A DNA stretch of 8,687 nucleotides, from contig JALGZO010000393.1 of NCBI GenBank assembly GCA_025774865.1, forward strand, positions 1-8,687. Direction: 5' to 3'. The notes beneath the pieces were generated by a model, which saw nothing but the letters and a program-made list of their open reading frames with translations, was not told where the DNA came from and ran no database searches. Positions 93-8,375 of this stretch are shown here, piece after piece. Source of the DNA: a bacterium (GTDB lineage: Bacteria > ARS69). How positions within the stretch are numbered: position 1 is the stretch's first letter; each line of letters starts with the position of its first letter. A program made the translations under genes and the position numbers.

Positions 93-1889
93 ATGTCCGA
101 CCGCGATTCCACGGTCCTGATTCTCGGCGGTGCCGGCCTCGTCGGGCGACAATGCGCGAAGAGTATCGGGCGGACGCTCGCGCCGTCGCGGATCGTCATC
201 GCCGCTCTCTTCCGCAAGGAAACACGAGAGACCGTCACCGAGCTGCGCCAGCAACTGCCTCATGTCGAGGTCCAGGGCTACTACGGGAACCTCTTCGTGC
301 GCGGGGAGCCGACCCCGATCGACCGGCGGGCACCGGAACCATCACCGCGCGAATTCGCGGACATTCCCGAGAATCGCCGGGCGATCTTCGAGGACCTGTA
401 CGAGGATTTCGAGGCGGCGTACCGCGACTCGTTTCTCGTCCGTCTCGTGAAGACGGTGAAGCCCGACGCCGTGGTCGACACGGTCAACACCGCGACGGGC
501 ATCAGTTACCAGGACATCTTCTCCAGCTCGTTCGTCGTGTCACGGGGACTGCGCGAAGCGCGCTCGGGGACGCAGCCGCTGTCGCCGGAGCTCGAAACGG
601 ACGTGGAGAATCATCTGATCTCGGCGTCCGTTCCCCAGCTCATCCTCCACATCCGCTTGTTGCAGCGCGCGCTTTCCGAGATCGGGACACGCATTTACGT
701 CAAGGTCGGCACGACCGGAACGGGAGGAATGGGGCTCAACATCCCGTACACGCACGGCGAGGACAAACCGAGCCCCACCCTGATGTCGAAGACGGCGACG
801 GCCTTCGCCCACACCGGACTGCTCTTCCTCATGGCCCGAACGCCGAACTGTCCCATCATCAAGGAGATCAAGCCGGCCGCGATGATCGGATACCGTCGGA
901 TCGGGTTCCAGCTGGTGAAGGGTCCCCAGTACCGTCCGTCGAAGGATCGCTCTCGCGTTCGGCTCGTATCGGGCGAGGCCTACCACCTCTACGAGGCTCG
1001 CAAGCAGACTCTCGGCGACACGCTCGACAACGAGCCCACGTTCGACGGCTTCTCCACCGTGAACGACGGTGACGGCAAGCCGACCAAGCTGACCCTGCCG
1101 TGCGTGAACACGGGCGAGAACGGCATCTTCACGCGGGGGGAGTTCGAGGCCATTACGGCGTTGGGCCAAATGGAGTTCGTCACCCCCGAGGAGATCGCCG
1201 ATCTCGTGACACTCGAGCTGCAAGGGAGCAACACCGGCCGCGACGTCATCTCCGCCATCGATTCGTCGATCCTGAGCCCTTCCTACAAAGGGGGATTGAT
1301 CCGGAGCGTAGCGGTGGAGGAACTCGAAAAGCTCGAGCGGGAGCGGGGGGTTCCCTCCGTCGCGATCGGCCAGCTCGGCCCGCCGCAGCTTGCCAAGTAT
1401 CTCTACGAGGCGCATTTTCTCAGGGAGCTCTACGGCACCGTGGAAGGTGTCCTCAGCGACGAGGATGGCAAACCCCGCCGCGGGGGCGATGTGTCCGCGG
1501 CGCTCGAGAGAAGCGTCCTGAAGAGCACGTTGCGGCACACCATCACATCGGTGGGAATCCCGATCCTTCTCGCCGACGGCGAGACTGTCTTGCGCGGACC
1601 GGTGATCAAGATCCCGCCCTACAACAAGAAGGCTCACGTCGTGCCGCTCGGGCCGGAGCGCATCGACCGTTTCGCGAAGAAGGGCTGGGTCGATCTGCGT
1701 CCCTCGCACGCCACGTGGTGGCTGGAGCAGTTCCGCAGCATGCGCCGCTCCGTCTATCGCCGGGGAGCCAAATGGAGCTCGGAGCGGCTCGACTCCCGCT
1801 CTTACCTTTCCGACGAGATTCGCATTGGCGAAGTGGTCGCCTGGATCTTCAACAACCAGATCGATCCGCCGGGTCACCGCATCAAGTAG
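93..1889 (+). CDS. large NAD(P)-binding Rossmann-fold protein, SDR/epimerase-like, function unknown
   Basis: This 598-residue protein begins with a beta strand (VLIL, residues 8-11) followed by GGAGLVG at 12-18, the GxxGxxG dinucleotide-binding signature of classical Rossmann folds. A later strand, AVVDTVNTAT at 126-135, sits where SDR/epimerase proteins have the cofactor-contacting fourth strand. Residues 203-233 (strand VKVGTT, a Gly-rich GTGGMG turn, Tyr219, Lys225, Lys233) resemble the catalytic Ser/Thr-Tyr-Lys region of extended SDRs, but no clean YxxxK is present, so catalysis is uncertain. Extended SDRs are usually about 300-350 residues; this one has roughly 250 further residues of unrecognised sequence with a basic C-terminus. 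No signal peptide or membrane segment is apparent, so it is probably cytosolic. It is first in the apparent operon, 33 bases before the acyl-ligase fusion gene, which suggests an oxidoreductase acting on an activated acyl substrate; that role is inference. A saccharopine-dehydrogenase-like protein is an alternative. Confidence 0.7.
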   Translation: MSDRDSTVLILGGAGLVGRQCAKSIGRTLAPSRIVIAALFRKETRETVTELRQQLPHVEVQGYYGNLFVRGEPTPIDRRAPEPSPREFADIPENRRAIFEDLYEDFEAAYRDSFLVRLVKTVKPDAVVDTVNTATGISYQDIFSSSFVVSRGLREARSGTQPLSPELETDVENHLISASVPQLILHIRLLQRALSEIGTRIYVKVGTTGTGGMGLNIPYTHGEDKPSPTLMSKTATAFAHTGLLFLMARTPNCPIIKEIKPAAMIGYRRIGFQLVKGPQYRPSKDRSRVRLVSGEAYHLYEARKQTLGDTLDNEPTFDGFSTVNDGDGKPTKLTLPCVNTGENGIFTRGEFEAITALGQMEFVTPEEIADLVTLELQGSNTGRDVISAIDSSILSPSYKGGLIRSVAVEELEKLERERGVPSVAIGQLGPPQLAKYLYEAHFLRELYGTVEGVLSDEDGKPRRGGDVSAALERSVLKSTLRHTITSVGIPILLADGETVLRGPVIKIPPYNKKAHVVPLGPERIDRFAKKGWVDLRPSHATWWLEQFRSMRRSVYRRGAKWSSERLDSRSYLSDEIRIGEVVAWIFNNQIDPPGHRIK

Positions 1890-1922: not shown

Positions 1923-4900
1923 GTGGAACCTCTCGTGACTCAGGAAGCGAGCCGCGCGCGGCGACCCCGCCGCTCCGCGATCGATGGTCTCGTCGACCGC
2001 GTGCAAGACCTGCTCGGTTCTCTGGAGAAGTCAGGCGGCGCGGAGACCGGCCTGAGCGACGCCGCTCGCGTCGCCGGGCTCTTCCGTTCGACCCGCGAAG
2101 CGGTCGCGGCGCTGGAGAGTGCGAAGTCGGATGCCAGCGAATCCGCCGCCGGCAGGGTTCACGCCACGCGGTCACTCGTTCACCGCATCCTCGAAGCCGC
2201 ATCCACGAGGGCCGTGCGCCTCGCGTTTCACACGTCGCCGTTCGCGACGGAATGGACGGACCTTCTCCTCGAAGCCGTGCAGCTTTCGGACTACACGGTC
2301 GGGAAGATGTTCTTCGCGCGCGCCCATCAGCTGGGCGACCACTCGCTGTTCCTCCTGCCGTCGCGCTACCGGCAGGATCGTGTGACCTGGCACGATGCCG
2401 GCGCGCGCGTCATGGCGATCGGGCGGGCGCTCCTGGCGCTCGAGAAGAGCGAGAGGATCGCGCCGGTCGCGATGCTCAGCGCCAACTCGCCGGGTCTCGC
2501 GCTCTTCGACCTCGCCTGCCTCTCCGTCGGGATCCGGAACGTGCCGGTACCCACGAACTCGCCGACGCCCCAGATCGACTTCATTCTCGAGCACTCGAAG
2601 GCGCGATCACTCTTCGTGGGCGACGCGATCCTCGCGGAGGTCGCGCGCGAAGCTCTCGGCAAGCGAGACGGTCTCCGGGTTCATTGGCTCGACCCGGACC
2701 GGGAAGCCGACGGTTCGATCCGGACGTTCGCCGAGTTCCTGGCGGCCGGCGACTCGGTCTCGGAAGATCAGGTCACCGAGGCCGTGGCCGCCGTGCGTTC
2801 CTCGGACGTCGCCACGACCATGTACACGTCGGGCACGACGGGCATCCCGAAGGGCGTCCCCTTCACGAACGGCAACCTGATGACGAAGCGCTTCGCGCGG
2901 GCTGCCGCCTGGCCGGACGTCGGCGAGGGAGATCGCTTCCTCTGCTATCTCCCGCTCTACCACACGTTCGGCCGGTGGCTCGAGATGCTCGGGTGCGTGT
3001 TCTGGGGCGCGGTATACGCCTTCGTGGAAGACGTGTCGAAGGAAGGGCTGCTCGAGTCGTTCAAGCTCATGCGCCCGACGACGTTCATCTCCGTTCCGAA
3101 GAAGTGGATCGATGTCGCCGAGCACGTGGCGCCCCTCGAAGGCGAGAGCCCCCCCGAGGCGGCCCGTTCGCTCGCGAAGAGACTGCACGAGGAGACCGGG
3201 GGATATCTGAAGCGGGGACTCTCGGCGGCGGGGTACCTGCCGGCCGCCGTCTTCCGGCGCTTCCACGACGCTGGAGTCGCCCTCCACTCGGGATTCGGGA
3301 TGACCGAGGCCACCGGCGGCATCACGATGACGCCGGTCGGTGACTACCGCGACGACTCCATCGGCGTGGCTCTACCGGGGATCGAGCTCCAGATTGCGGA
3401 CGACGGCGAGCTCCTCGTTCGCGGTCCGTACGTGACCCCGCCGACGGAGGACGACCCGCCGCGTGCGGAGGGCTGGCTGGCCACCGGCGACATCGTGCAG
3501 CAAGATGACGAAGGTCACCTTCGCATCGTCGATCGCAAGAAGGAGATCTTCAAGAACGTTCAGGGCGAGACGATCTCCCCTCGACGCATCGAGAGCCTCT
3601 TCGAGGATTTCGATGTCGTCGATCGCGCGCTGGTGATCGGCGACCGGCGCGACTTCTGCACCGTTCTGCTCGTTCCGAGCTCCGACCTGCGGGAGCAATA
3701 CGCCGCGGACACCGGCGGACCCACGCTCGAGTCGCCCGAGCTCTGGGAGCTCTTTCTCCCGGTCGTCGCCACGGTGAACCGGTTCCTCGCTCCGTACGAG
3801 CGCATTCTCGACTTCGCGATCCTCGCCCGTGACCTCGACGCCGAGCGCGGGGAGCTGACCGCGAAGGGAACCCCGAAGCGCGCGCTCGTGGCCGAGCGCT
3901 ACAACGAGATCATCGAGCCCATGTACTCGCGAGAGGAATTGACGCGTCAGGTCGGCGACCTCGCCGTGACCCTGCCTCAATGGTTCCTCCGGCACGCGGG
4001 AATCTCGGCCGGCGACGTGCACGCTTCCGACGACGGCCTCCGGATCGTGACTACGGGAATCCAACTCACGATCCGGCGCGAGCCTCGCGGCGCGGGCGTT
4101 CGGGTGGGTGACCTCGTCTACGACCTCGGGGACCACGCAGACGAAGTCTGGTTGGGGGAGATTCTCGGTCGCGCCCAGCTTTGGCTCGGCAACGAGGCCG
4201 TTCGCCGGTTCGGGGGACCCGGGATCGTACACTGGTGGCGTCGCGGCCGACGCTCGAGAGTCGGCACGAGTCTTCGGGAGCGCCCACTCGGGAAGGAGTC
4301 CGCCACTTCCGCGTGGAGCGAGACATCATCCGGCGAAGGTCTCGCGCCACCCCTGGATCTCGAGGGGCTGCACGAGCGGGCGAGGGCTTTGCTGCACCCT
4401 CTGCCTGAGGTGCGACGGGCGGCGGTGGAGTCGTGCGGACGACGGCTCGCAAATGCTCCCTCCGAGGTGCAGTCGTTCGCCCGCGAAGTGCTGTACTCCG
4501 TCCTGGACGATCGCGAGGTGCGGTCGGCCGCGCTCATCGCACTGCTCCCGTCTCTCTCGCCCACCGATCTCGAGAGTCTCTTCGCCGAACGACTCGACGA
4601 CGACGACTTTCTCTCGGAGTCGGAGGCGAACGTCGTCGCCCGCCAGGCGCTCCGCGGCGATCAGCTCGCGAGTCTGCTCGAGCGAACGACCGTGTTGGCC
4701 GCCGCCGACCACCGCGGACTCGGGCGGCTGCTGGGATACCTCGTTCGGCAGGCGGTGGAGCACGCTCAGAGCCACCTCCAGGTTCGGTCGTTCCTGGTGG
4801 GGCTTCGCGAGGAGCACCCGGATGCATTCCACGAGGAGTTGCTCGACCGGTGCCTCGAGGACCTGGCGAGCGGCCTGCGAGCACGAGCTCCCGCCCTCGA

Positions 4901-6686
4901 AACCGCGCCCGGCGTGTCGTGGGAGGAGGCCGTCGAGCTCCACGGCGTGACCGACAGCGGAGAGCGTGCCCGCATCCTTGATGCGCTCGCGAACACGAAG
5001 CTGCTCCCCGAGGCCATCGCTCTGCTCGGCGCCAGCCCGGCGCGGAGAATCCTCCCCCTCGAGCCGAAATGCGTCCGCGTCACATTTCTCGGCACCGGGA
5101 ACGGACGCGCAATCCACCTTCTCGAATGGTCCCCGACCGGCCTCGACGGGGCGGCGCCGGCATTCGAGTGTCTTCTGAAGGTCAATCGCGATCTGGACTG
5201 GGACGATGTGCGCCGCGAGGTTCGTCTCTTGATCCGGGCTCGTACCGGTGGGTCCGGTCGCCCCGTGGTCAAGACGCAGGGTGGCGGCTATCCGGAACAG
5301 GGCATCTGGACGGAGGAGTGGGTGCCCGGGCGCACACTCGACGCCGCGATCGAGAGCCTGATCGTCGCCGACGGCACGAGTCTCGAGGCCGTCACCGCCC
5401 GGGGACGTTGGCAGTTCGTCGTATCGACGTGCACGTCGCTCATCGTGGACTTCTGGAAGCGAACCGGCCAGAAGGTCTCCCTGGCCCACGCAACGCCGGA
5501 GAAGATCGTCGTGCCGAGGCACGACTGGCAGGTCGGCGGCCGTCTCGTCTCGGTGGCCGAACGGGTGCCGTGCGGAACGTTGTCGGAGGTGCTGGAGGCG
5601 ATCGACGAAGGACTCGTCCGGCCTCTACGCGCTCGGTTCCCCGACTCGGACCTCGGACCCTCCTGGCCGTACCTACTCTCGTCGGCCCTCGAAGTACTGG
5701 GAGAGACCGAGGGGTTCCGGCGGCTCGAAGAAGAGACCGGCGACGAGCGGGCAAGTCGACCGATCCGGGACGCGATCCAGCGGTTCCTGTCGTCCGCCCA
5801 CCGGCGTGGCTTCCTGCCGCTGCGAATTCGAAACGCCGTGCGACGCTACCGGACGTGGTCACAGCTCAACCCCCGCGCGACGCTCGAGGCGCAGGCCGCC
5901 ACTCTCGACCAGATCCAGGACGCGTACGCGCTCGAGGATCTCGATCGTGAGCGACCGGGCTCGATTGCGCAGTTCTATCGCCACACCGTCTTCCGCGGCT
6001 CGAGCTCGGAATTCAGGAAGCGATTCGACGAGATGATCGCCGGACACCGAGCGGAGCCCCACACGACCGCCGAGTGGCACCGCGAGGTCGCCGATCTCCG
6101 AGAGTCATGGGAGCTCTCAGGTCACGAGGAGTTCTGGCTCGCGCGGATGCTGTACCCCCACGTCGATCCCGCGGGCCGGGCGTTCCTTGTCCGAGAGGAG
6201 GACCCCGGCGGCGGGTTCCAGACCGGCATCCAAGTGGAGTACGAGGACCAGCAGGGCGAGCGATTCAGCGTCCGGCGACCGACGAATCCGAACGAGATCG
6301 CCGCGCTCGTCCGTGTCTTCGCCGCCGCCAACTTCCGGCGCGTCCCGATCACGAAACACCACGACTTCCTCGTCGTGACGGACGCGACGGGCCGCGTGGC
6401 CGGGGGTCTGATCTTCCGGCGGATGAGCGATGCTTACGTGCGGCTCCATGGGCTCGTCGTGAGCCGGCACCGCCGTGGGAGGGGCATCGGCAAGGCACTG
6501 CTCACCGATCTCCTGCAACGTCTCAGGGTCCAGGGGGTTCAGGCCGTTTCGACGGGCTTCTTCCGGCCGGCGTTCTACTCGGCCTTCGGGTTCGGCGTCG
6601 ACCCTCGCTACGCGGGACTCGTGCGATTCCTGAGTGACGACGCGGCCGATCGGGTCGGTTCAGAGACCACCGAACGGGGTCGATGA
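1923..6686 (+). CDS. multidomain acyl ligase (ANL) - helical - kinase-like - GNAT acetyltransferase fusion
   Basis: A 1587-residue protein starting at GTG. Residues 1-123 are a mainly helical extension. From about 124 to 680 it is an AMP-forming acyl ligase resembling the long-chain acyl-CoA synthetase branch: ATP-binding loop YTSGTTGIPKG at 301-311, GFGMTEATGG from 457, WLATGD at 518-523 with Asp523 for the ribose hydroxyls, hinge DRKKE at 537-541, and LTAKGTPKR at 645-653 holding the candidate catalytic lysine. Residues 680-772 are a beta-rich segment, and 773-810 an Arg/Ser-rich linker. Residues 811-985 are helical and could be HEAT-like repeats. Residues 1047-1240 weakly resemble a kinase/phosphotransferase fold. 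Residues 1260-1420 are helical. A GNAT acetyltransferase occupies about 1446-1575, with the acetyl-CoA loop RRGRGIGKA at 1517-1525 and FYSAFGF at 1551-1557. The ligase would adenylate a carboxylate and the GNAT would move an acyl group from CoA to an amine. Stand-alone ligases are 500-650 residues. The next gene starts 6 bases after the stop. Ligase and GNAT calls are firm; the middle domains and the substrate are uncertain. Confidence 0.85.
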   Translation: MEPLVTQEASRARRPRRSAIDGLVDRVQDLLGSLEKSGGAETGLSDAARVAGLFRSTREAVAALESAKSDASESAAGRVHATRSLVHRILEAASTRAVRLAFHTSPFATEWTDLLLEAVQLSDYTVGKMFFARAHQLGDHSLFLLPSRYRQDRVTWHDAGARVMAIGRALLALEKSERIAPVAMLSANSPGLALFDLACLSVGIRNVPVPTNSPTPQIDFILEHSKARSLFVGDAILAEVAREALGKRDGLRVHWLDPDREADGSIRTFAEFLAAGDSVSEDQVTEAVAAVRSSDVATTMYTSGTTGIPKGVPFTNGNLMTKRFARAAAWPDVGEGDRFLCYLPLYHTFGRWLEMLGCVFWGAVYAFVEDVSKEGLLESFKLMRPTTFISVPKKWIDVAEHVAPLEGESPPEAARSLAKRLHEETGGYLKRGLSAAGYLPAAVFRRFHDAGVALHSGFGMTEATGGITMTPVGDYRDDSIGVALPGIELQIADDGELLVRGPYVTPPTEDDPPRAEGWLATGDIVQQDDEGHLRIVDRKKEIFKNVQGETISPRRIESLFEDFDVVDRALVIGDRRDFCTVLLVPSSDLREQYAADTGGPTLESPELWELFLPVVATVNRFLAPYERILDFAILARDLDAERGELTAKGTPKRALVAERYNEIIEPMYSREELTRQVGDLAVTLPQWFLRHAGISAGDVHASDDGLRIVTTGIQLTIRREPRGAGVRVGDLVYDLGDHADEVWLGEILGRAQLWLGNEAVRRFGGPGIVHWWRRGRRSRVGTSLRERPLGKESATSAWSETSSGEGLAPPLDLEGLHERARALLHPLPEVRRAAVESCGRRLANAPSEVQSFAREVLYSVLDDREVRSAALIALLPSLSPTDLESLFAERLDDDDFLSESEANVVARQALRGDQLASLLERTTVLAAADHRGLGRLLGYLVRQAVEHAQSHLQVRSFLVGLREEHPDAFHEELLDRCLEDLASGLRARAPALETAPGVSWEEAVELHGVTDSGERARILDALANTKLLPEAIALLGASPARRILPLEPKCVRVTFLGTGNGRAIHLLEWSPTGLDGAAPAFECLLKVNRDLDWDDVRREVRLLIRARTGGSGRPVVKTQGGGYPEQGIWTEEWVPGRTLDAAIESLIVADGTSLEAVTARGRWQFVVSTCTSLIVDFWKRTGQKVSLAHATPEKIVVPRHDWQVGGRLVSVAERVPCGTLSEVLEAIDEGLVRPLRARFPDSDLGPSWPYLLSSALEVLGETEGFRRLEEETGDERASRPIRDAIQRFLSSAHRRGFLPLRIRNAVRRYRTWSQLNPRATLEAQAATLDQIQDAYALEDLDRERPGSIAQFYRHTVFRGSSSEFRKRFDEMIAGHRAEPHTTAEWHREVADLRESWELSGHEEFWLARMLYPHVDPAGRAFLVREEDPGGGFQTGIQVEYEDQQGERFSVRRPTNPNEIAALVRVFAAANFRRVPITKHHDFLVVTDATGRVAGGLIFRRMSDAYVRLHGLVVSRHRRGRGIGKALLTDLLQRLRVQGVQAVSTGFFRPAFYSAFGFGVDPRYAGLVRFLSDDAADRVGSETTERGR

Positions 6687-6692
6687 AGAGAG

Positions 6693-8375
6693 ATGGAATC
6701 GAGAATCTGGCACCACGCCTACGACGCGGGGGTTCCCGCGGAGATCGGGTTCGCGGAAACAGCGCTCCCGGAGCACCTGAACGAGTCCGCGGCGCGATTC
6801 GGTGATCGCCCGGCGCTCCGTTTTCTCAACCGTCGGATGAGCTATCGTGAGCTCGACGCTCAGGTCGACCGTTTCGCGGCGGCGCTCGCGGGTCTCGGCG
6901 TCGCGAAGGGCGACCGGGTCGCGATCCAGCTCCCGAATCTGCCGCAGACAATCATCTCGTTCTACGGGACGCTGCGACTCGGTGCCGTCGCGGTCATGAC
7001 GAACCCGCTCTACGTGGCGCGCGAGCTGGAGCACCAGTGGAACGACGCCGGTTGCAAGATCGCGATCACGACCGACTTTCTGTACGCGGGTCGCATCGAG
7101 CCGATCCGTGACAAGTTGCCGGTCGAGCATTTCGTCATCGCGGAGATCGCAGAATACCTTCGCTTCCCGCTGAAGCAGCTCGCACCGATCAAGCTGAAAC
7201 GGACGACCCCGCCGCTCTGCGCCGACGTGAAACCGGGACCGGGCATTCACCGGTTCCGGGAGCTGCTGGACGCGGCCCCCGGAGGCCCGCCCACGGTGGC
7301 GAACAACCCGGGGGATCTCGCCGCTCTCCAGTACACCGGCGGCACCACCGGATCGTCGAAGGGGGCCATGCTGACGCACGCGAACCTCTCGTGCCAGGCG
7401 CAGCAGCTCAGCGCGTGGCTTCCGGAGCTGGTTGCCGGTGAAGAGGTGTTCCTGGCCGCCCTCCCCTTCTTCCACGTTTTCGGGCTGTCGGTGGCGATGA
7501 GTCTCCCGGTACACGTCGCCGCGGAAGTGATCCTCCTCCCGAATCCCCGCGAGATACCCTTGATGATCGACGCCATCAACAAGCACGGCGTCACGATCTT
7601 CCCGATCGTTCCGGCGATGGTGAACGGGATCAACCAGAGTCCGAAGGTCGCCGGGCTGAAGGTCGGGACCTTGAAGATCTGCGTTTCCGGATCCGCCCCG
7701 CTGCCCGAGGACACGCTTCGCTCGTTCGAGGCCCGAACGGGAGGCCGGATCGTCGAGGGCTACGGACTCACCGAGGCTTCCCCGGTGACCCACGTGAATC
7801 CGAACAACGGTGTTCGCAAGATCAACACGATCGGGGTGCCGATCCCCGGGACCGACTGCCGGATCGTCTCCCTGGAGGACGGGCGGACGTTGGGGGCCGG
7901 CGAAGAGGGTGAGCTGGTCATCCGGGGTCCCCAGGTGATGAAGGGCTATTGGAATCAGCCAGAGGAGACGGCGGGGACTCTGCGGGACGGGTGGCTTCAC
8001 ACGGGCGATCTCGCCTCGATGGATGACGACGGCTACTTCCGGATCGTCGGTCGCAAGAAGGAGCTCATCATCGCCGGCGGCTACAACATCTATCCCGACG
8101 AAATCGACGAGGTTCTGGTCTCTCACCCGGACATCCTCGAGGCCGCCACGATCGGAGTGCCGGACGAGAAACGGGGAGAAACCGTGAAGTCGTTCGTGGT
8201 GTTGAGACCCGGCGCTTCCGTCTCCGAGGAGGAGATCACCTCGTACTGCCGCGAGCGGCTCGCCGCCTACAAGATCCCACGCCTCCTCGAGTACCGCGAC
8301 GAGCTACCCAAGAGCAGCGTGCTGAAGATCCTTCGCCGAAAGCTCCTCGAAGAGGAGCTCGCGGCGAAGGCTTGA
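6693..8375 (+). CDS. fadD: FadD-type long-chain fatty acyl-CoA synthetase
   Basis: This 560-residue enzyme matches the length and layout of E. coli FadD (561 residues) and should convert a fatty acid, ATP and CoA to acyl-CoA, AMP and pyrophosphate through an acyl-adenylate. The start near a Trp-x3-Tyr-x2-Gly-Val-Pro motif is typical of the FadD group. Visible signatures are the ATP-binding loop YTGGTTGSSKG at 214-224, YGLTEASPV from 357, WLHTGD at 434-439 with Asp439, the hinge GRKKE at 453-457, GGYNIYPDE at 462-470, and the C-terminal LPKSSVLKILRR at 538-549, where Lys545 is the expected catalytic lysine. The residue before that lysine is Leu544 instead of the usual glycine. The hydrophobic, non-secreted sequence suggests a cytosolic or membrane-associated enzyme. 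The ATG follows the preceding stop by 6 bases with only a weak, very close purine tract (AAGAGAG), which suggests translational coupling to the fusion gene. Chain-length preference cannot be read; a role in biosynthesis is as possible as beta-oxidation. Confidence 0.92.
   Translation: MESRIWHHAYDAGVPAEIGFAETALPEHLNESAARFGDRPALRFLNRRMSYRELDAQVDRFAAALAGLGVAKGDRVAIQLPNLPQTIISFYGTLRLGAVAVMTNPLYVARELEHQWNDAGCKIAITTDFLYAGRIEPIRDKLPVEHFVIAEIAEYLRFPLKQLAPIKLKRTTPPLCADVKPGPGIHRFRELLDAAPGGPPTVANNPGDLAALQYTGGTTGSSKGAMLTHANLSCQAQQLSAWLPELVAGEEVFLAALPFFHVFGLSVAMSLPVHVAAEVILLPNPREIPLMIDAINKHGVTIFPIVPAMVNGINQSPKVAGLKVGTLKICVSGSAPLPEDTLRSFEARTGGRIVEGYGLTEASPVTHVNPNNGVRKINTIGVPIPGTDCRIVSLEDGRTLGAGEEGELVIRGPQVMKGYWNQPEETAGTLRDGWLHTGDLASMDDDGYFRIVGRKKELIIAGGYNIYPDEIDEVLVSHPDILEAATIGVPDEKRGETVKSFVVLRPGASVSEEEITSYCRERLAAYKIPRLLEYRDELPKSSVLKILRRKLLEEELAAKA

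Follow-up and report, generated by a model that had tools for sequence, protein, structure and literature searches.

A single-chain protein family joining an AMP-forming acyl ligase, a probable pseudokinase segment and a GNAT domain in several bacterial lineages

Introduction

Pat-type acetyltransferases (SePat/RpPat) consist of a large domain followed by a C-terminal GNAT domain and are tied to acyl-CoA metabolism. The large domain of Pat is probably regulatory (PMC4053389). In Escherichia coli, the GNAT protein YiaC lactylates the citrate synthase GltA in vitro, and the acyl-CoA comes from a separate enzyme, YdiF (PMC9636275). ANL ligases, including FadD11-like enzymes and the adenylation domains of carboxylic acid reductases, are another relevant group. 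Here, we describe a protein of 1587 residues from a bacterium of the lineage ARS69, in which an ANL-type ligase, a helical section, a kinase-like segment, and a GNAT domain are found on one chain. It is encoded on contig JALGZO010000393.1 of GenBank assembly GCA_025774865.1, and the whole stretch of 8,687 nucleotides that was analysed is called the window.

The fusion has the same full ligase module as the ANL enzymes with all of its catalytic residues, whereas approximately 900 extra residues are fused to it and no carrier protein or reductase domain was found. It shares with Pat the order of a large part followed by a C-terminal GNAT. In contrast to Pat, the large part appears from its sequence to be an active AMP-forming ligase with a solenoid and a probable pseudokinase, and Pfam and NCBIfam give an AMP-forming ligase beside the GNAT in place of a Pat-type large domain. 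The lysine lactylation system of E. coli also combines a GNAT with an acyl-CoA maker, but it is made of two proteins, and its donor enzyme YdiF is a CoA-transferase, not an AMP-forming ligase. Small kinases of the Bud32/PRPK and RIO types are the best fold matches of a low-confidence model of residues 1041–1315, where the catalytic residues are mostly lost and no sequence match exists. The initial annotation of this DNA would have been refuted by a common architecture of assigned function, but no function is assigned to this one in Pfam, NCBIfam, or the literature searched, and the four-part order is not described in that literature (subscription papers were outside the search). Each module is of a known kind, but neither their combination nor the degenerate kinase-like part nor the genomic link reported below is described in the libraries or literature searched.

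A stable single-chain family

The 1587-residue chain is a stable protein family and not an artefact, because the same module order in one chain recurs across phyla. The order ligase, middle part, and GNAT is present in 50 aligned full-length homologs, and the arrangement was found in at least five bacterial lineages. Full-length relatives are single open reading frames (ORFs) from several phyla with approximately 36–56% identity. When species genomes were scanned, seven loci matched across most of the chain with 36–54% identity; five of them carry the label Gemmatimonadota, another comes from an Acidobacteria bin, and the last from a different bacterium. The middle part is present in all five genomes of the window's own small phylum, and the ORFs are 1598, 1615, and 1758 residues long where the contig spans the whole gene. 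Searches of whole phyla found matches in 25 of 195 genomes for the phylum of G186, of which 24 belong to family f162 and one to f183. The phylum of G006 gave 9 of 298, including two marginal matches, and that of L022, the Acidobacteria bin, gave 27 of 297. The fusion had been called rare-looking, which is correct in that carriers are few outside particular families, but the family itself is stable and recurring.

A profile of residues 985–1445 alone matched 11 of 386 genomes across the domain. Neither this search nor the phylum searches gave a convincing match to a free-standing middle part, and where the middle part matched a shorter frame, either the contig was short or the frame looked broken. 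The initial annotation had named separate genes in related genomes as a sign of a false fusion; among the genomes searched, none was found with the middle apart from the ligase and GNAT. In the Acidobacteria bin, the fusion (L022 8162-12546) is divided into two frames with a break between residues 402 and 435, which is probably a frameshift or sequencing error.

The window belongs to a fragmented metagenome-assembled genome (4.7 Mb in 785 contigs, 8% contamination), a background against which separate genes might have been joined by an assembly artefact or chance read-through. However, dozens of independent genomes share the single frame, several of them single-contig, and this conservation refutes the artefact, to which we assign a negligible probability. 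Third-position GC is high in every 150-codon block of ORF 1923-6686, indicating coding periodicity. The open frame and the conservation in homologs bear out the earlier view of one continuous, real protein. No plasmid relatives were found, and anti-phage defence models gave no match.

The ligase module

Pfam identifies AMP-binding at residues 149–505 (E 3e-56) and AMP-binding_C_3 at 546–672 (E 7e-13). The T-S-G-T-T-G-x-P-K-G loop and the catalytic Glu, Asp, Arg, and Lys of ANL ligases are present, and T302, S303, G304, G307, E462, D523, R538, K540, and K648 show no variation across all 50 homologs. The retained catalytic residues predict a ligase that is apparently active. In the PDB, a domain of the carboxylic acid reductase type is its best match, and the nearest entries comprise the adenylation domains of such reductases together with luciferases. 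Its best NCBIfam match is FadD11, with every curated cut-off missed by far. The ligase is the module with the highest identity to the window among homologs. For example, L024 is 48% identical in the ligase, 26% in the beta domain, 23% in the solenoid, 34% in the pseudokinase, and 33% in the GNAT.

Lys648 lies in the motif E-L-T-x-K-x-[TS]-x-x-R, and it offers a possible, though doubtful, role for the GNAT within its own chain. The GNAT would acetylate Lys648, in cis or between chains, and switch the ligase off, with the solenoid and pseudokinase as a sensor. Pat acts in a similar manner in trans on acetyl-CoA synthetase, Lys648 is invariant, and the modules were never found separated. However, every active ligase of this type has this lysine, and its conservation therefore gives no special support to such self-control.

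The GNAT domain

Pfam places Acetyltransf_1 at residues 1478–1557 (E 2e-9). The model of this domain matches YhbS (Z 16.1, root-mean-square deviation 2.2 over 141 residues) and GCN5/PCAF (Z ~15.5), and the GNAT fold is accompanied by an R/Q-x-x-G-x-G/A CoA loop. This loop, RRGRGIGKA at 1517–1525, keeps G1521 in 49 of 50 homologs. It lies where the initial annotation had placed it, as do the ligase motifs YTSGTTGIPKG and DRKKE.

Many GNATs carry an acidic residue on the strand that precedes the CoA loop, although not every GNAT requires it. The window has His1509 at this position, and of two partial homologs from the same family, one has Leu and the other Glu. Because of the His at the usual acidic position, the activity of the window GNAT is less certain than that of its relatives, and the domain may be altered or use another base.

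The middle region and the kinase-like segment

Between the ligase and the GNAT, Pfam gave nothing above threshold, and searches of the middle region against Pfam/NCBIfam and PDB sequences gave nothing usable. Residues 676–1587 were modelled with 8 alignment rows and middling confidence (912 residues; predicted local distance difference test (pLDDT) 70, predicted template modelling score (pTM) 0.43). In this model, a beta-rich domain and a disordered linker are followed by an alpha-solenoid and a kinase-like arrangement, and then by helices and the GNAT. The earlier order of ligase, helical section, kinase-like segment, and GNAT is retained, with a beta domain (676–765) and a helical linker (1316–1435) added to it. 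W754, G756, and N757 of the beta-rich domain are nearly invariant in the 50-homolog alignment. The solenoid is only weakly HEAT-like: HEAT_2 at 822–895 is below threshold (E 0.0076, 17–18 bits against a cut-off of 27.7).

A fold search with the whole 912-residue model returned GNAT matches only among the matches listed, and the kinase-like part was therefore folded alone. The model of residues 1020–1400 (8 alignment rows) is of low confidence at pLDDT 62, and all of its matches among those listed are protein kinases (Foldseek E 1.5e-4). Bud32/PRPK is the best of them, with a Z of 7.4 that is below the level safe on its own. The catalytic positions are approximate, being read from this model. 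Across the 50 aligned homologs, members of the window's family retain the strand-3 Lys, and the others mostly have Asn or a different residue there. Asp occurs at the HRD position in about one row of 50 (L082), and the DFG-Asp position (the residue after strand 8) carries Asp in a minority, mainly f162 rows. None of the 50 rows has the Lys, the HRD Asp, and the DFG Asp together, and the window has only the Lys.

Because the catalytic Lys and HRD Asp are lost in nearly all members and the DFG Asp in most, the segment is probably a pseudokinase. The term kinase-like in the initial annotation finds support in the fold comparison of this low-confidence model, but most of the catalytic residues have been lost. 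A working kinase that phosphorylates a partner would fit the modelled fold and the strand-3 Lys of the window's family; this is very improbable given the scarcity of both Asp residues and the replacement of the Lys outside that family. The features of the window are collected in Table 1.

Table 1. Positions of the fusion, its parts, and the flanking genes in the window
Feature	Coordinates	Strand	Basis or remark
Rossmann/SDR-like gene upstream, ~598 aa from ATG 93	93..1889	+	Same place in L015, L018, L019
Single-chain fusion protein	1923..6686	+	1587 aa, GTG start; open frame and full-length single-ORF homologs
Variable N-terminal region, residues 1-104	1923..2234	+	Lowest conservation in homolog alignment; no Pfam match
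AMP-forming acyl/CoA ligase module, residues 105-675	2235..3947	+	Pfam AMP-binding, AMP-binding_C_3; PDB relatives
ATP-binding loop YTSGTTGIPKG, residues 301-311	2823..2855	+	T302, S303, G304, G307 invariant in 50 homologs
Ligase hinge DRKKE, residues 537-541	3531..3545	+	R538, K540 invariant in 50 homologs
Lys648, putative catalytic lysine, ligase C-terminal subdomain	3864..3866	+	K in 50/50 homologs
Small conserved beta-rich domain, L-W-x-G-N motif, residues 676-765	3948..4217	+	Predicted strands, pLDDT ~71-85; no Pfam match
Alpha-solenoid, weakly HEAT-like, residues 813-988	4359..4886	+	Predicted helical array, pLDDT mostly 72-91
Degenerate protein-kinase-like domain, residues 1041-1315	5043..5867	+	Foldseek/VIA matches; model pLDDT 62
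Conserved helical linker, residues 1316-1435	5868..6227	+	Predicted helices; conserved positions 1348, 1355, 1357
GNAT acetyltransferase domain, residues 1436-1579	6228..6659	+	Pfam GNAT; fold matches YhbS, GCN5/PCAF
His1509, position Glu/Asp in 49/50 aligned homologs	6447..6449	+	Alignment
Second, free-standing acyl-CoA ligase (FadD-like) downstream	6693..8375	+	Pfam/NCBIfam; same place in L015, L016, L017, L019

Linkage to citrate synthase

Outside the window's own family, citrate synthase is the one clear neighbour family that different phyla have in common. It lies less than 6 kb from the fusion in about a dozen genomes and in several arrangements. The gene is convergent in L021, L084, L085/L150 (one genome), L125, L127, L128, and L129 and, at greater distances, in L022 (2.5 kb) and L132 (5.8 kb). 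It follows the fusion in tandem in L020, L024, and L080 and precedes it in L079. Citrate synthase is single-copy in most genomes with the linkage, which needs at least three changes on the tree. The rough chance of finding it within 6 kb is 0.5% per locus, and 10 of 22 loci would have a probability of ~1e-18 if the loci were independent, which they are not. In G006, the adjacent citrate synthase (L020 14707-16065) matches its family over the first 273 residues only, and the genome has another partial copy at a separate site, which suggests a frameshifted or broken gene.

Every f162 neighbourhood examined has a homocitrate synthase gene directly 3' of the fusion, overlapping it or within ~30 bases; the enzyme scores above the TIGR02146 cut-off. 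L079 has the citrate synthase directly upstream of the fusion besides the homocitrate synthase downstream. A disguised Re-citrate synthase was considered for the f162 enzyme and dropped, as it closely resembles the homocitrate synthase of Thermus and scores above the cut-off of that family. A C25 family peptidase (gingipain-like) with a type IX secretion-like C-terminal domain was also observed near the fusion of G004 (L014 16124-18442).

Neighbours in the window's own family

Genomes of the window's family have the gene order SDR-like gene, fusion, FadD-like ligase. The SDR-like protein carries a GGAGLVG nucleotide-binding motif and has no Pfam, NCBIfam, or PDB sequence match. Its relatives, with 39–54% identity, occur in genomes of other families without a fusion match, and one of them (L163, another phylum) lies near a ligase-like ORF.

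The conserved tandem, together with the SDR relative near a ligase-like ORF in another phylum, is consistent with a biosynthetic role, in which the ligase and GNAT would jointly make an N-acylated small molecule or lipid with the two flanking gene products. The initial annotation had already suggested an N-acyl compound as the product. We consider this role unlikely. The neighbours elsewhere belong to primary metabolism (citrate synthase and homocitrate synthase), and the GNAT fold, which resembles both protein and small-molecule acetyltransferases, is not decisive.

Possible function of the fusion

The initial annotation had proposed adenylation of a carboxylate followed by acyl transfer to an amine, and the invariant ligase residues and GNAT fold are compatible with this. 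The acceptor may be a protein lysine, a small amine, or the ligase itself. Our leading, still tentative, explanation is a conserved single-chain acyl-transfer protein in which the ligase makes acyl-CoA and the GNAT acylates lysines of metabolic enzymes. The ligase would convert a carboxylic acid into its acyl-CoA, and the GNAT would pass the acyl (or acetyl) group to the lysines. The role of the solenoid and pseudokinase would be to hold or sense either a partner or a ligand. Since its gene recurrently adjoins the fusion, citrate synthase would be the first candidate target in the clade with Gemmatimonadota and Acidobacteriota members. The target may differ in the window's family because the neighbours there are the SDR-like oxidoreductase and the second acyl-CoA ligase. 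The catalytic ligase residues, the GNAT fold, the constant presence of the modules on one chain, and the adjacency of citrate synthase argue for protein acylation, and the lactylation of GltA by YiaC in E. coli is a precedent for it.

Several points weigh against it. The nearest relatives of the ligase do not fix the acyl chain. The window's own family has no citrate synthase linkage, the gene being elsewhere in the genome. A second tree clade of 19 homologs is also without this linkage, and it has no homocitrate synthase neighbour either; the linkage counts inside one clade are not independent. In addition, the window GNAT has His1509 in place of the acidic residue, and a same-family relative has Leu. 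Taken together, acylation of metabolic enzymes ranks first, control of the ligase by its own GNAT second, and small-molecule synthesis third.

In a more specific form, which we regard as rather doubtful, the fusion would be a self-sufficient protein-acylation machine that converts a carboxylic acid to the acyl-CoA it uses and places this acyl group on lysines of central enzymes, citrate synthase first, with the pseudokinase as a sensor or substrate clamp. Because the fusion adjoins the citrate synthase gene in some lineages, it may couple carbon-source activation to the control of central metabolism. If true, this would be a direct case of a bacterium signalling its carbon source to the entry of the tricarboxylic acid cycle through one protein.
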